63,469 nucleotides of DNA from Gemmatimonadaceae bacterium (GCA_017881585.1 JADGQS010000002.1:1-63469), one strand, 5' to 3'. Counted from the first letter of the stretch, positions 1-5,439 are shown. Notes: generated by a model not told the origin, from the letters alone. Numbers and translations: made by a program.

Positions 1-1
1 A

Positions 2-157
2 CGCCTGTCCGAGCGCCTCGGGATTCCCACGCTCGTGCTCGACGGCGACGTGAACGACCTGCGCTGTTTCTCCGACGAGCAGGCGCGCACGAACATCGAG
101 GGGTTCGTCGAACAACTTTCCGACGCGCGCGGAGTCAGCGGCCGGCGGGAGCATTGA
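2..157 (+). CDS. 2-hydroxyacyl-CoA dehydratase / benzoyl-CoA reductase-type subunit, C-terminal end only
   Basis: This is the last 51 codons of a gene that starts before the window. The frame reads RLSERLGIPTLVLDGDVND and then FSDEQARTNIEGFVEQL, which is the usual C-terminal pattern of the HgdA/HgdB/BcrB/BcrC family (GIP-x-L-x-x-D-x-D followed by SxEQxxTxIExFxE). These subunits hold a [4Fe-4S] cluster and reduce or dehydrate an acyl-CoA after electron delivery by an activase. The stop TGA overlaps the ATG of the next gene, an activase of the same system, by one base (TGATG). Which subunit it is cannot be told from this fragment. Confidence 0.75.
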   Translation, partial: RLSERLGIPTLVLDGDVNDLRCFSDEQARTNIEGFVEQLSDARGVSGRREH

Positions 158-1002
158 TGGGTCGCTACGCCGGCGTCGATAGCGGGTCGTGGAACACGAA
201 GGCCGTGGTGATCGACGAGGGCGGCAACGTGCTCGGCACGAGCGTCGTACGCTCCGGCGCCGACCTGACGGCGGCGGCCGAGCGGGCGTACGACGAGGCG
301 CTCGCGAGCGCCGGGTGCGCGCGGACCGGAGTCACGGCCGTCTGGTCGACCGGTTTCGGTCGAAACGCCGTTCCGTTCGCCAATGGCTCGCGGACGGAAC
401 TCGACTGTCACGGGCGCGGCGCGGCATTCCACGTGAAGGGGCCGCTCGTCGTGATCGATATCGGCGGACAGGACGCCAAGGTGATCCGGCTCGACGCGCA
501 GGGACAGCGGCTGTCGCATCGGATGAACCGGAAGTGCGCCGCGGGCACGGGCAGCTTTCTCGATGAAATCGCGCTCCGCCTCGGCATCGAGACCGCGGCG
601 CTCGACGTCCTCGCCGCGCAAGCCACCGAAGAGCTCGAACTCTCCAGCTTCTGCACGGTCTTCGCCGGCACCGAGCTGCTGACGCTGATCCGGGCCGGAC
701 GGCGCCCCGCCGACCTGGCGATGGCGGCGTATCGCTCGCTGATGAAGCGCGTGATCGCGATGGACGTCTTCGAAGGGCGCGTCGTCGCCACCGGCGGCGT
801 GGTCGCATACCACCCGACGATGGTCGCGCTGCTCTCCGAAGCAGTGCGCGCCGAGGTGATCGTCCCGCCGTATCCGCAGGAGATGGGCGCGTTCGGCGCG
901 GCGCTCGCGGCGCGCGACGGCGCGGTGTCGGTGGGACCGGGGAGCGTCTCCCACCGTGCAGGCACGGCGCCGGCCGCCGAAGGATCCGACGATGACGCCT
1001 GA
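157..1002 (+). CDS. ATP-dependent activase of the BadF/BadG/BcrA/BcrD/HgdC family
   Basis: ASKHA-fold ATPase that drives low-potential electrons into a 2-hydroxyacyl-CoA dehydratase or a class I benzoyl-CoA reductase. The 281 residues match the length of BcrD/BadG and HgdC. Visible motifs are the first phosphate loop GVDSGSWNTKAVVID near the N-terminus, the second phosphate loop DIGGQDAKVI, the cluster cysteine region MNRKCAAGTGSFLDEIA, a second cysteine in SSFCTVFAGTE, and the late VATGGVVAYHP loop. A GCGGGAG Shine-Dalgarno ends five bases before the ATG at 157. The ORF track start at 154 is a TTG one codon upstream and is less likely. The downstream Had-type dehydrogenase favours a benzoyl-CoA reductase role over amino-acid fermentation. 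Confidence 0.85.
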   Translation: MGRYAGVDSGSWNTKAVVIDEGGNVLGTSVVRSGADLTAAAERAYDEALASAGCARTGVTAVWSTGFGRNAVPFANGSRTELDCHGRGAAFHVKGPLVVIDIGGQDAKVIRLDAQGQRLSHRMNRKCAAGTGSFLDEIALRLGIETAALDVLAAQATEELELSSFCTVFAGTELLTLIRAGRRPADLAMAAYRSLMKRVIAMDVFEGRVVATGGVVAYHPTMVALLSEAVRAEVIVPPYPQEMGAFGAALAARDGAVSVGPGSVSHRAGTAPAAEGSDDDA

Positions 1003-2917
1003 ACAAGCGGTGGCCGAACGGCAGCCGATGAGCCACGCGCTCGCCGCCGTTCGCGAAGGCGACAGCATCCGTTCGCGACTCGCGCCCGTGGGCGAGCGCG
1101 AGAGCGTCGGCGCACTGCTCGCTCGCAACGTGGCACGGTTCGGTTCGCACGCCGTCTACAGCGAACGCCGCGACGGTGCGTTCCGCGCCGTATCGTGGGA
1201 AGCGTTCGCCCGCGACGTCGCGTCGTTCGGCGCCTTCCTGTCCGCCGCGGGTATGCGGGCTGGTGCGCGGGTCGCCGTCGTGTCGCCGAACCGCGGCGAG
1301 ATGCTCATGGCCGAGTTCGCGACGATGAGCCTCGGCGGGACGTTCGTGCCGATCTTCGCCGGCTACCCCGCGCACCAGGTGCGGGACCTTCTTCGCCAGG
1401 CCGATCCCACCGTCGTGATCGTGGCCGGGCGCGACCAGCTCGCCGGAGTCCATTTCGGCGAGGCGACGCGCGCGCTGGTCACCCTCGAGCCCGTCGATCC
1501 CGCCACGGTCGAGCCGCTGCTGCGCGGGGCCCGCGTCAGTCACACCACGTTCCGCGACGCGCTCGCGCAGTTCCCCGTCGACCAACCGCGCATCGCCGCG
1601 TTTCTCGACTCGGCGGCACGCATCGATCCCGGCGAGCCCTGCCTGCTGAACTTCACCTCGGGCACGAGCGGCGTGCTGAAGGGCGTCGTGCTGACGCACG
1701 ACAACATCCTCTCCCAGCAGCGCGCGCTGTCGGCGATCTGGTCGGTGACGCACGCGGACCGCTTTCTCTCGTACCTCCCGTGGCACCACAGCTTCGGCGG
1801 GATTTTCGAGAAGTACACCGCGCTGTACAACGGCGCGACGATCCACATCGACGACTCGCGGGGAAAGGACTTCACGGCTCTCCGGCGCAACTGGGTGGAG
1901 GTCCGTCCGACGATCTACTTCAGCGTGCCGCAGGTCTATCAACAGCTCGTCACGCACGTCCAGTCGCGGCCCGAAGACGAAGGCACGATCTTCCATCCCG
2001 GCCTGCGGTTCGTCTTCACCGCGGCCGCGGCGCTCCCGGCGAACGTCTCCGCCTTCTTCGCCGCGAAGCGCGTCCCGGTGCTCGAGGGATGGGGGCTGAC
2101 CGAGACGTCGCCGTGCTGCACGCTCACGGACTTGTCGGAACCGCGCAGCGTCCCCGGCATGGTCGGCTATCCGATTCCCGGCGTCACGATCGGGATCGCA
2201 CCCGATGGCGAGATCCTGGTGCGCGGCCCCAACGTGATGCGGGGCTATGACGCGGATCCCGCGGCAACCGCACGGGCGCTCCCGGGCGACGGCTGGTTCC
2301 ATACGGGAGATCTCGGGGAATTCGTCGGCGCTGCGCTCAAGCTCGTGGCCCGCAAGGACCGCGTTTTCAAGATGCTCAACGCGGAAAAGGTCGTCCCGAC
2401 GGAGATCGAAAACCGGCTGGCGGGGATGAACAGCTTCATCCGTCACGTCATCGTCGCGGGACAGGGCCAGCGGTTCCTCTCCGCCCTCATCTTTCCCGAC
2501 TTCTTCCGCATCGCCGAACAGTTCGGCGCCGACCAGGCCTTGGCCGATCGCGTGGTGAAGGCATCGCTGCGCGACACGCTGCTCGCGTTCAACCTCGAAC
2601 ATCAGGTGAAATACGAGCGGATCCAGGCGTTCGCCGTGATCAGCAAGGAACTGTCGCTCGAGGACGAGGAGCTCACGCCGTCGATGAAGGTGCGGGTGCG
2701 CAACGTCCTCGCCAACGCCGAAGAATACCTCGAGGCCGTGTACGCACCGAGCGAGGACTGCGATTGCCGCTTCCTGCGCAAGGTGATGCGGCTCTCCCCC
2801 GACGACCGGCGCTGCTTCGCGGGCATCGATCGTTCCCTCGATGAATGCCATGCCTGCGGGAGCTTCGTCTTCGGCGACGACCCCGCTGCCGACGAGAAAA
2901 TCCAACCGAGCCACTGA
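992..2917 (+). CDS. AMP-forming acyl-CoA ligase with Cys-rich C-terminal tail
   Basis: Adenylate-forming CoA ligase of 641 residues that would activate a carboxylic acid to its CoA thioester. Motifs are the P-loop NFTSGTSGVLKGVVLTH, GWGLTETSP, the hinge-region GWFHTGDLGE, and RKDRVFKMLNAEKVVPTEIE holding the C-terminal catalytic lysine region. Its body resembles long-chain acyl-CoA synthetases, but its operon suggests an aromatic or alicyclic acid as substrate; that is inference. The last 55 residues are not a normal part of the family and hold cysteines at about 590, 592, 608, 619 and 622 (C-x-C, C, C-x2-C), suggesting a metal site. The start at 992 has AAGGA upstream and overlaps the activase by 11 nt. 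The ORF track start at 956 is a GTG inside the activase. Confidence 0.88.
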   Translation: MTPEQAVAERQPMSHALAAVREGDSIRSRLAPVGERESVGALLARNVARFGSHAVYSERRDGAFRAVSWEAFARDVASFGAFLSAAGMRAGARVAVVSPNRGEMLMAEFATMSLGGTFVPIFAGYPAHQVRDLLRQADPTVVIVAGRDQLAGVHFGEATRALVTLEPVDPATVEPLLRGARVSHTTFRDALAQFPVDQPRIAAFLDSAARIDPGEPCLLNFTSGTSGVLKGVVLTHDNILSQQRALSAIWSVTHADRFLSYLPWHHSFGGIFEKYTALYNGATIHIDDSRGKDFTALRRNWVEVRPTIYFSVPQVYQQLVTHVQSRPEDEGTIFHPGLRFVFTAAAALPANVSAFFAAKRVPVLEGWGLTETSPCCTLTDLSEPRSVPGMVGYPIPGVTIGIAPDGEILVRGPNVMRGYDADPAATARALPGDGWFHTGDLGEFVGAALKLVARKDRVFKMLNAEKVVPTEIENRLAGMNSFIRHVIVAGQGQRFLSALIFPDFFRIAEQFGADQALADRVVKASLRDTLLAFNLEHQVKYERIQAFAVISKELSLEDEELTPSMKVRVRNVLANAEEYLEAVYAPSEDCDCRFLRKVMRLSPDDRRCFAGIDRSLDECHACGSFVFGDDPAADEKIQPSH

Positions 2918-2919
2918 CG

Positions 2920-3996
2920 ATGACGACGAAAACGGACGGAATGTGGGAGGCGTGGATGATGACCGCACCGGGAGCGCCGTTCGAGAGGCGCGACCTGCCG
3001 GCGCGCTCGCCAGAGCCGGGTGAAGTGACGATCGAGGTGGCGGGCTGTGGGGTGTGCCACACCGACCTCTCGTTCCTGTATCACGGGGTGAAGACGCGTG
3101 GCACGCTGCCGCTCGTCCTGGGCCATGAAATCAGCGGCATCGTGCGAGCGGTCGGAGATGGAGTGGACTCGGCGCTCGTCGGGCGTTCCGTCGTGGTGCC
3201 GGCCGTGCTGCCGTGTGGGGAGTGTGAGTTGTGCCGCGCGGGGCACCGCACGATCTGCCGGCGACAGGTGATGCCCGGAAACGACCGGCACGGCGGTTTC
3301 GCGTCGCACGTCGTGGTGCCCGCACTTTTCGTATGTCCCGTCCCCGGGCCGGCGCTCGCCAGGCACGAGCTCTGGGAGCTGAGCGTCGTCTCCGACGCCG
3401 CGTCGACGCCGTTCGAGGCGGTGAAGCGCTCGGGTCTCGCCGCCGGCGACCTCGCGGTCCTCGTCGGCGTGGGCGGCATCGGCGTCTACGGCGTGCAAAT
3501 CGCGGCGGCGACCGGAGCGAAGGTCATCGCCATCGACATCGACGACCGGAAGCTTGAGCAAGCCCTGGCGGCAGGAGCTCATGTGGCGCTCAACGTGAAG
3601 GACATGCAGGTCAAGGAAATCCGCAAGCGCGTGAGGGGCGAAGCCGAGGGCATCGGCGCGCCGCCGCACCTGTGGAAGATCTTCGAAATGTCGGGGACAC
3701 GCGCGGGCCAGGAGACGGCGTTCTCGCTGCTGGGCTTCGGGGCGTCACTCGCGGTGGTCGGCTTCACGACGGACCGCGTCGAGATCGCCCTGTCCAACCT
3801 GATGGCGTACGACGCAGTGGTGCGCGGCAACTGGGGGGCCGACCCGCTGATCTACCCGGAACTTCTCGACTGGGTCGGCGATGGCCGGATCGCGGTGAAG
3901 CCGTACATCGAGAAGCACCCACTTGCGCGCATCAACGAGGTTTTCGAGGAGGCGCACCGAGGCGGGTTCCTCAAGCGCGTCGTGCTCGTTCCGTAG
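2920..3996 (+). CDS. had: 6-hydroxycyclohex-1-ene-1-carbonyl-CoA dehydrogenase (Had-type zinc alcohol dehydrogenase)
   Basis: Zinc- and NAD-dependent MDR dehydrogenase of 358 residues. The text matches remembered Thauera Had closely: WMMTAPGAPFERRDLPA, AGCGVCHTDLSFLYHGVKT, LPLVLGHEISG, VVVPAVLPCGECELCRAG, MPGNDRHGGFASHVVVPA, then a GVGGIGVYGVQIA Rossmann loop and WKIFEMSGTRAGQ. Had oxidises 6-hydroxycyclohex-1-ene-1-carbonyl-CoA during anaerobic benzoyl-CoA degradation, two steps after ring reduction. The catalytic zinc ligands (Cys in GVCHTD, the His-Glu of GHE) and the structural four-cysteine lobe (CGECELC, then C of TICRR) are present. It follows the ligase after 2 nt. I chose ATG 2920 because the ORF track start at 2845 reads shadow sequence of the ligase. 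A different but related acyl-CoA alcohol substrate cannot be excluded. Confidence 0.85.
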   Translation: MTTKTDGMWEAWMMTAPGAPFERRDLPARSPEPGEVTIEVAGCGVCHTDLSFLYHGVKTRGTLPLVLGHEISGIVRAVGDGVDSALVGRSVVVPAVLPCGECELCRAGHRTICRRQVMPGNDRHGGFASHVVVPALFVCPVPGPALARHELWELSVVSDAASTPFEAVKRSGLAAGDLAVLVGVGGIGVYGVQIAAATGAKVIAIDIDDRKLEQALAAGAHVALNVKDMQVKEIRKRVRGEAEGIGAPPHLWKIFEMSGTRAGQETAFSLLGFGASLAVVGFTTDRVEIALSNLMAYDAVVRGNWGADPLIYPELLDWVGDGRIAVKPYIEKHPLARINEVFEEAHRGGFLKRVVLVP

Positions 3997-4019: not shown

Positions 4020-4583
4020 TCAGTCGGAGATCGCCCGCGCCTCCCGCTCGAGTTTCGCCGCGAGCGCGTGGAATTTTTCGTGCGCTCCCTCGCCGGTTTC
4101 CTCGCGTTCAACGCGCTCGAACCCCTCCAGGACGCGTTCCTGTCGCGCGGGAGAGAACAGCTCGTCGGCCATCGGGAACAGCATCTCGTCTTCCTTCGCG
4201 ATGTGGTCGCGCAGCAGCGCGACGTAGCCGCGCACGTTCGACACGACCTGCGCGCGCGCCGGGGCGTCGCCGGCCTGGAGCCGGCGCGCGGCATCGCGCA
4301 GCGCACGCGTCAATGCCCGTCCCTGTTCGTGCTCTTCGAGCATCATGTCGATCACGCCACCGCCGGTGGGCACGCCGCTTTCGATCATCGCGCCGAACAG
4401 CACGCCTTCCTCCTTTCGGTGGTGGCAGCCGTCGGCGAAGCCGGCGATGAAGTCGGCAGCCTCGAGAAAGAACGTCGGGGGGACGGAGTGCGAACGCTCC
4501 AGATGACCGGCGGCGATTTCGAGCGCGTCGAGCACGCGCTCGATGAGCCGATGTTCCTGCATGAGAACGTCTATGGCTTTCAT
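4020..4583 (-). CDS. Hemerythrin-domain protein
   Basis: Four-helix-bundle protein of 187 residues with the non-haem di-iron ligand pattern of HHE proteins: MQEHRLIERVL near the start, GCHHRKEEGVLF, LEEHEQGRAL, then LRDHIAKEDEMLFPMADE. Such proteins bind O2 or NO, or sense them, in the cytosol. The ATG at 4583 precedes MKAIDVLMQEH; the ORF track extends upstream into shadow sequence. It lies 25 nt downstream of an alpha/beta hydrolase on the same strand and converges with the Had gene. A link to oxygen protection of the oxygen-sensitive upstream enzymes is possible but only inferred from position. Confidence 0.85.
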   Translation of the reverse strand: MKAIDVLMQEHRLIERVLDALEIAAGHLERSHSVPPTFFLEAADFIAGFADGCHHRKEEGVLFGAMIESGVPTGGGVIDMMLEEHEQGRALTRALRDAARRLQAGDAPARAQVVSNVRGYVALLRDHIAKEDEMLFPMADELFSPARQERVLEGFERVEREETGEGAHEKFHALAAKLEREARAISD

Positions 4584-4608: not shown

Positions 4609-5439
4609 CTACCGCGCGAGAAGCTTTCCGATCGCGCCGGCCACGCGTGCCGGGGCGTCCTCCGGCGAGAAATGCCGCGCGTCGGCAATCAGGTCGAGCG
4701 TGGCGCCGGGAATCGTGTCGCGCAGGCGTTCTCCCACGCGAACGTCGATCCACGGATCGCGCTCGCCCCATACGATCGCCGCTGGTTGCGTGATGCCTCG
4801 GAGCCGCGCTCCGAGTTCAATTACGGTGGGATCGTTCATGGCGCGCAGCTGCGACACGAGCGCGTCCACCCCGAGGCGCATGGTGTAGGCGCGAAGAAAA
4901 TTGTCGAGCGCGTGCCGGCCGGCTTCTTCGTCGGCGAAGCCGTTGAGCAACGAGCCGTGCACGAGTCCGGCGAGGAGCGGCGCGCCGAGCGCGCGTCCCA
5001 CAGGCGTGATGGAGGAGAGCAATCGCGCGAGGCGCGCCGCGCCACGGGGCCAGGCGTCGAACGCCGTGCTGTTCACGAGGCAGAGCCGCGTCACGCGTGA
5101 CGGCGCGTTGAGCGCGAGCGCCTGCGCCACGGCGCCGCCCATCCCGTGACCGACGACACACGCGGAGTCGATGCTCAGGTCGTCCATCAACAGCCGGACG
5201 CGATCGGCGTGCGCGGTCGCTGTGAGCGAGGAGAGTCCGGGCCGGTCGCTTCTGCCGAATCCGAGGAGGTCGACGACGACGAGGCGGTGGCCTTCCGGCA
5301 TTTCTCGCACGACGCCGTGCCAGAGATGTGACGAGGCCGGGAATCCGTGCAGGAAAATGACCGGCTCGCCCGCGCCGCGCGTGCCAGCGGCGTAGTAGTA
5401 GAGTCGCGTGACACCCAGATCCACAAACTCCCCGCGCAT
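4609..5439 (-). CDS. Alpha/beta-fold hydrolase with Gly in place of the nucleophile
   Basis: Alpha/beta hydrolase of 276 residues with the oxyanion motif FLHGFPASSHLW, the strand VVVDLLGFGRSD, the acid region WGERDPWIDV and the late histidine DARHFSPED. The nucleophile elbow reads VVGHGMGGAVA, so the G-x-S-x-G serine (or the Asp or Cys of relatives) is glycine, encoded GGG. A normal ester-hydrolysis mechanism is therefore not expected unless another residue acts. The gene may encode an enzyme of changed chemistry, a non-catalytic binding protein or a decaying gene; the frame is otherwise intact. It is divergent from the next gene, with about 210 nt between them. Confidence 0.8.
   Translation of the reverse strand: MRGEFVDLGVTRLYYYAAGTRGAGEPVIFLHGFPASSHLWHGVVREMPEGHRLVVVDLLGFGRSDRPGLSSLTATAHADRVRLLMDDLSIDSACVVGHGMGGAVAQALALNAPSRVTRLCLVNSTAFDAWPRGAARLARLLSSITPVGRALGAPLLAGLVHGSLLNGFADEEAGRHALDNFLRAYTMRLGVDALVSQLRAMNDPTVIELGARLRGITQPAAIVWGERDPWIDVRVGERLRDTIPGATLDLIADARHFSPEDAPARVAGAIGKLLAR

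Follow-up and report, generated by a model that had tools for sequence, protein, structure and literature searches.

We propose that the first four genes of the window, the 63,469-nucleotide stretch of Gemmatimonadaceae DNA analysed here, are the 3' end of an anaerobic aromatic operon, and that four of the operon's products, FUS, ACT1, HADB and ACT2, probably form a predicted aryl-lactyl-type dehydratase that feeds benzoyl-CoA. These four proteins are a second system of the benzoyl-CoA reductase (BCR)/(R)-2-hydroxyacyl-CoA dehydratase (HAD) radical-enzyme family, distinct from the BcrCBAD proteins encoded in the same operon.

Results

The window holds the tail of a 17-gene operon

The window is the whole of contig C218 of a 3.09-Mb assembly in 240 contigs (genome G000). 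Its bases 1-99 (+) are identical to the last 99 bases of another contig of the same assembly, C144 (80,347 bases), and in a close relative at 97-98% identity (L044, L047; genes mostly 93-99% identical) the run is unbroken on one contig. Given the exact 99-base overlap and the contiguous copy in the relative, the join of C144 to C218 is sound. The window's four genes close a 17-gene operon inside which the contig breaks, and C144 holds the other 13 genes (Table 1). Spacing within the operon ranges from small overlaps up to 47 nt; the sequence-only reading had described four tightly packed genes, which all lie on the + strand, and its coordinates, with the two overlaps and the gap, are right to the nucleotide. 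Because the same gene order occurs in other Gemmatimonadota genomes, with FUS 61-98% identical, the arrangement is not due to chance. Just downstream of Had, on the - strand, lie the gene of a short protein judged hemerythrin-like by eye (window 4020-4583) and an alpha/beta-hydrolase-like gene (4609-5439), neither of them obviously an operon member.

Table 1. Genes of the operon, in operon order, on contig C144 and in the window.
Feature	Location	Strand	Remarks
BcrC	C144 63176-64378		
BcrB	C144 64378-65652		
BcrA	C144 65649-66917		
BcrD	C144 66917-67771		
Hcr-like FAD subunit	C144 67806-68684 (L010:17806-18684)		292 aa
Hcr-like fused gamma-alpha subunit	C144 68681-71539		
TetR regulator	C144 about 71.4-72.2k		
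Thiolase	C144 72237-73454		
BadI/Oah-like crotonase	C144 73485-74444		
SDR	C144 74456-75205		
Dch-like hydratase	C144 75216-75995		
FUS	C144 76027-78327		
ACT1	C144 78355-79152		
HADB, full gene	C144:79152-80347 + window 100-157		417 aa
HADB, 3' end	window 2-157	+	alpha-type subunit, BCR/HAD radical-enzyme family; stop TGA 155-157
ACT2	window 157-1002	+	activase; overlaps HADB by 1 nt
LIG	window 992-2917	+	AMP-forming acyl/aryl-CoA ligase (PF00501); overlaps ACT2 by 11 nt
Had	window 2920-3996	+	6-hydroxycyclohex-1-ene-1-carbonyl-CoA dehydrogenase; final gene; 2-nt gap after LIG

Contig C60 of the same assembly (L009, 1-16796) carries the operon once more, in diverged form and truncated at either end. 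This copy shows 79-94% identity to genes of other genera (L036, L037, L041), against 62-92% to C144, and its proteins are closest (85-96%) to those of genus g3 (L037). That the C60 copy is an old paralogue is doubtful, since it resembles other genera more than it does C144; transfer or mis-binning is just as likely an origin.

The upstream genes match a class I benzoyl-CoA reductase

Against the curated NCBIfam equivalogs, the upstream BcrC scores 481 bits (cut-off 421), BcrB 693 (487) and BcrD 337 (313), and BcrA, at 567 bits, lies 11 below its cut-off of 578. The three cluster cysteines of BcrB align with Cys95 and Cys128 of BzdO and Cys346 of HadB, and the conserved terminal Cys motif of BcrC, FCDPA, is aligned as well. 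We therefore assign bcrCBAD, on these profile scores and motifs, as a predicted class I (ATP-dependent) benzoyl-CoA reductase of the Bcr type, as found in Thauera. Had was named correctly from the sequence alone: this zinc dehydrogenase passes its equivalog, TIGR03201, with 432 bits (cut-off 339), and its closest solved relatives are the Had structures 7qul (256 bits) and 7quy (255 bits), the next best, non-Had match scoring 86.

The remaining pathway genes are more diverged. In the four Gemmatimonadota genomes tested, no canonical Dch (TIGR03189) or Oah (TIGR03200) scored above cut-off; the best scores in G000, 146 bits for Dch (cut-off 292) and 185 for Oah (cut-off 464), both fall in the operon, which leaves its Dch-like and BadI-like genes as sole candidates for these two steps. 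The Hcr subunits score below the curated cut-offs (on C60, alpha 939/995 and gamma 165/258 bits; on C144, gamma 169/258 and beta 134/405), and the operon's genes are classed here as Hcr-like only. Thauera HcrB carries an extra [4Fe-4S] insert. The Hcr-like FAD subunit has only four scattered cysteines, which together with its 134/405 bits on HcrB suggests that it probably does without this insert. The best NCBIfam scores of LIG, about 204 bits each for FadD11 and PRK12582, are under the respective cut-offs, and the benzoate-CoA ligase model TIGR02262 is absent from its best 25 NCBIfam matches.

The inference of ATP-driven dearomatisation in this lineage, which had been drawn from the window alone, thus holds through the upstream bcrCBAD genes and a true Had, but not through the window's subunit and activase, which are not the reductase. 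The proposal to look upstream for the missing partners turned up a complete reductase with diverged Dch-like and BadI/Oah-like genes, though no Dch or Oah above cut-off. The genes immediately upstream are of HAD type, which, with the lack of a canonical Dch or Oah, the sequence-only reading had named as evidence against itself; yet the reductase is present and the dehydrogenase is a true Had.

HADB is dehydratase-like, and FUS is its cluster-less paralogue

HADB is an alpha-type PF06050 protein that scores 152 bits with HadB, 99 with MbdO and 67 with BzdO among solved chains. Cluster positions were checked by alignment against BzdO Cys95/Cys128 and HadB Cys346, the BzdO residues, His131 included, being taken from PMC11971306. 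All three [4Fe-4S] cysteines are kept in 24/24 HADB sequences. The motif V-A-W-C-[ST] is as in HadB, where BcrB and MbdO have VYTFV and AYCFI; at the place of BzdO His131, HADB has Val, again as in HadB, and BcrB and MbdO have Phe. The alignment also places the active-site Glu and the PEN motif in HADB. Its AlphaFold model (pLDDT 70) is weaker than that of FUS, and the top fold match is HadB (3o3m). We also considered HADB as a double-cubane protein and rejected this, because it does not match the DCCP model and its three cysteines, of alpha type, have counterparts in BzdO and HadB.

FUS (766 aa) joins a ketopantoate-reductase-family dehydrogenase (residues 1-307) to a paralogue of HADB (residues ~360-760, 43% identical). 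All three alpha-subunit cluster cysteines are lost in 26/26 FUS sequences, and the dehydrogenase motifs are retained in the same 26/26. The AlphaFold model is fair (pLDDT 80), with a disordered linker at 306-349, and its fold matches are best to HadB (3o3o) and include ketopantoate reductases and D-mandelate dehydrogenases. With these enzymes (3hwr, 3wfi) the N-terminal domain shares the fold and the QNG, WxK and TE(V/I)DA(L/I)NG motifs; nearly all sequences have an acidic residue ending beta-2, as expected for NADH. What sets FUS apart from that family is the additional fusion to a BCR/HAD-family domain. No HadC-type beta subunit with its own cluster was found in G000, where all PF06050 genes are accounted for. 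A maximum-likelihood tree unites FUS with HADB in a single clade (100/100) that excludes BcrB, MbdO and BzdO, and within it the FUS and HADB sub-clades each mix Gemmatimonadota sequences with MAGs labelled Myxococcota and Deltaproteobacteria.

ACT1 and ACT2 are sister activases

The activase motifs reported for the window are there: ACT2 has both cluster cysteines (NRKCAAGTG, SSFCTVFA) and GGQDAK, and it scores 160 bits with PF01869 and 193 with TIGR00241 (cut-off 125). ACT1 keeps both cysteines and has lost the GGQDxK nucleotide motif. In the tree the two are sisters (100/98) outside the BcrA/BcrD/MbdP/MbdQ and HgdC/HadI lineages, and the degeneracy of ACT1 arose separately from that of BcrD and MbdP. 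The fused system thus has two unlike activases; beside the unfused HADB of Myxococcota, as in G312, ACT2 stands alone.

FUS accompanies the benzoyl-CoA pathway, and an unfused form lies elsewhere

FUS is carried by relatives named Gemmatimonadetes, Gemmatimonadota, Gemmatimonas and Gemmatimonadaceae. In a sample of 298 genomes from Gemmatimonadota, BcrB exceeds its cut-off in 17 and FUS is present in 16, namely in 15 of the 17 BcrB genomes and in G168, which has a reductase of the 3-methylbenzoyl-CoA reductase (MBR) type; for the co-occurrence of FUS and BcrB Fisher's p is about 3e-22, with relatedness ignored. Outside the sample, a deltaproteobacterial MAG (G298) has FUS, ACT1, HADB, ACT2 and a true Oah, and a Myxococcota MAG (G299) has FUS, ACT1, HADB and a true Oah. 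The class II BamB of G298 scores 814 bits against the solved Geobacter enzyme 4z3w, and by eye G299 has a near-identical protein. As the FUS set is found with Bcr-type, MBR-type (G168) and BamB (G298) enzymes, and so with each class of benzoyl-CoA reductase, it appears to accompany the pathway irrespective of which ring reductase is present. The idea that it is the sole dearomatising enzyme in genomes lacking Bcr was rejected, given BamB in G298 and Oah in both MAGs.

Several related loci were seen along the way. Diverged BcrB-like proteins (~200 bits) are present at L055, L030 and L031 and in about 25 further Gemmatimonadota genomes; those of the three named loci group with MbdO of 3-methylbenzoyl-CoA reductase (100/100), and reductases of the MBR type may be common among Gemmatimonadota that do not belong to the window's family. 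In the two MAGs, L160 (G298:C174) and L164 (G299:C407) each hold a normal alpha-beta dehydratase and activase directly followed by a gene that by eye is serine/threonine-kinase-like. In an Archaeoglobales MAG, HadC-like, HadB-like and activase genes lie in a row (L058:8976-11949) with a ketopantoate-reductase-family gene 2.3 kb downstream; this locus belongs to the family too, as an ordinary alpha-beta HAD.

A HADB orthologue occurs in 14/284 Myxococcota genomes, and in five of these an unfused dehydrogenase gene stands directly before HADB, without FUS or ACT1. The unfused dehydrogenases and the corresponding domain of FUS share only 22-32% identity. ACT2 follows the pair in at least two genomes (G312, G332), and in G332 an ADP-forming CoA ligase comes next. 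In G332, G366 and G497 the dehydrogenase-HADB unit lies beside ketosynthase (KS) and holo-ACP-synthase genes, joined in G366 (C201; L203/L217/L218) by two ACPs, an ApeP-type dehydratase, LolA, an MMPL exporter and a glycosyltransferase. Judged by this gene content, the unit sits in an aryl-polyene-like cluster in all three. Oah was not found in these genomes, and the single aromatic-lyase gene of each is on another contig. The contig of the G366 cluster (G366:C201) carries no aromatic ammonia lyase.

Discussion

Proposed role of the second complex

Because HADB has a dehydratase-like active site and the unit of dehydrogenase, alpha subunit, activase and CoA ligase recurs, we favour a HAD reaction over ring reduction. 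The dehydrogenase domain of FUS would reduce a 2-oxo acid to the (R)-2-hydroxy acid, which LIG would turn into the CoA ester. ACT1 and ACT2 would hand an ATP-boosted electron to the lone cluster of HADB, which would dehydrate the (R)-2-hydroxyacyl-CoA by the ketyl-radical route of HadBC/HadI. With neither a beta (HadC-type) subunit nor a cluster on FUS, the path of this electron is conjecture. The substrate is a guess from context: aryl-pyruvate would pass through aryl-lactate and aryl-lactyl-CoA to (4-hydroxy)cinnamoyl-CoA, whose chain the hydratase, dehydrogenase and thiolase could shorten to give (4-hydroxy)benzoyl-CoA. The Hcr-like enzyme and BcrCBAD would then dearomatise this ester, and Had and the BadI/Oah-like enzyme would process the product. 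Since the steps that follow ring opening likewise call for hydratase, SDR and thiolase, their presence does not single out cinnamoyl-CoA oxidation, and the substrate of this gene set could also be a 2-hydroxyacyl-CoA that is not aromatic. Both genomic settings would be accounted for if the product were an aryl-acryloyl-CoA, as aryl-polyene starter and as benzoyl-CoA precursor.

Alternative explanations

The sequence-only reading had taken the window's subunit and activase for BcrB/C and BcrD of a benzoyl-CoA reductase in an unusual gene order, which is understandable in that they belong to the same protein superfamilies and Had comes next in the same operon. Further upstream, however, that operon encodes all of BcrCBAD in its usual order, which also disposes of a reordered bcr operon; HADB reaches 120 bits on the BcrB model (cut-off 487) and ACT2 88 on the BcrD model (cut-off 313), and the trees place both proteins in separate clades with full support. 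The trees, together with the upstream bcrCBAD, in our view refute this assignment. It is also possible, though unlikely, that FUS, ACT1, HADB and ACT2 make up another ring reductase, permanently heterotetrameric and of a new class I BCR type, for a substituted benzoyl-CoA or for the diene product; the fused dehydrogenase would then work on a compound derived from the ring. In its 2+2 subunit plan the set resembles class I BCRs, having two unlike activases of which one is degenerate like BcrD and MbdP; in the Gemmatimonadota sample the FUS set is found only alongside a BcrB-like gene, and in G298 and G540 it adjoins a Dch-like gene and Had. The active-site residues and scores of HADB are dehydratase-like, however, and FUS-HADB has a single cluster where class I BCRs have one per catalytic subunit (PMC11971306). 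Moreover, the unfused form lies by aryl-polyene-like genes in Myxococcota without Oah, where ring reduction would make no sense.

A HAD reaction need not be aromatic. The nearest solved relative of HADB is 2-hydroxyisocaproyl-CoA dehydratase, and HADB-FUS might dehydrate an (R)-2-hydroxyacyl-CoA without an aromatic ring, such as one derived from branched-chain amino acids, and be merely co-transcribed with the benzoyl-CoA pathway. We consider this quite improbable: the linkage to aromatic-pathway genes is kept in Gemmatimonadota and in proteobacterial and Myxococcota MAGs, the unfused form is linked to aryl-polyene-like genes, and both contexts use aryl-acyl CoA esters. The aryl-lactyl-type dehydratase that we favour has its own counterpoint. 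A HAD activase is a homodimer, and the heterodimeric activase with one degenerate half, together with the permanent gene pairing, is more like class I reductases.

Relation to known systems

The closest comparison is HadBC/HadI of Clostridioides difficile (3o3m, 4eht), with which HADB shares the alpha-type fold, the three cluster cysteines, the active-site Glu and its neighbours, and ACT2 the activase motifs. The operon differs in lacking HadC, HADB being partnered by an alpha-like domain that has no cluster and is joined to a dehydrogenase, and in having two unlike activases. The HadBC/HadI system uses the CoA-transferase HadA, in whose stead the operon has a CoA ligase. FldBC with FldI of Clostridium sporogenes is a phenyllactyl-CoA dehydratase and would have the same reaction and substrate class as we propose, a likeness drawn from description rather than sequence; in subunit make-up FUS-HADB differs from it as it does from HadBC/HadI. 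From class I BCRs (Bcr, and MBR, which is MbdNOPQ, 9gai), with which it has the 2+2 plan and one degenerate activase in common, FUS-HADB-ACT1-ACT2 is set apart by the separate FUS-HADB clade, the missing second cluster and non-BCR active-site residues.

In the open-access papers searched we found no description of a dehydrogenase-BCR/HAD fusion, and searches of them on phenyllactyl-CoA dehydratase with BCR and on aryl-polyene starters gave nothing on the FUS-HADB system. In a 2024 survey of 37 reference genomes from the FCB superphylum, Gemmatimonadota among them, neither bcr nor bam genes turned up (PMC10936416). The present data place in this phylum a complete operon for a class I benzoyl-CoA reductase, and Gemmatimonadota that carry it appear, from their gene content, to break aromatic rings without oxygen.

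Among solved BCR/HAD members the FUS-HADB architecture is unmatched: in place of the beta subunit stands an alpha copy that has no cluster and is fused to a dehydrogenase. We tentatively suggest, as a possibility to which we give somewhat less than even weight, that FUS-HADB and its activases ACT1/ACT2 represent a new kind of radical dehydratase. It would be an alpha-alpha' enzyme holding a single iron-sulfur cluster, the half without a cluster being joined to the very dehydrogenase that supplies the substrate, and it would convert aryl-pyruvate to aryl-acryloyl-CoA free of oxygen and of ammonia lyase, for aromatic breakdown or for aryl-polyene starters depending on the phylum. If the dehydratase reading is true, the system would test how many clusters BCR/HAD chemistry requires, and it would provide an anaerobic route to cinnamoyl-CoA-type compounds.
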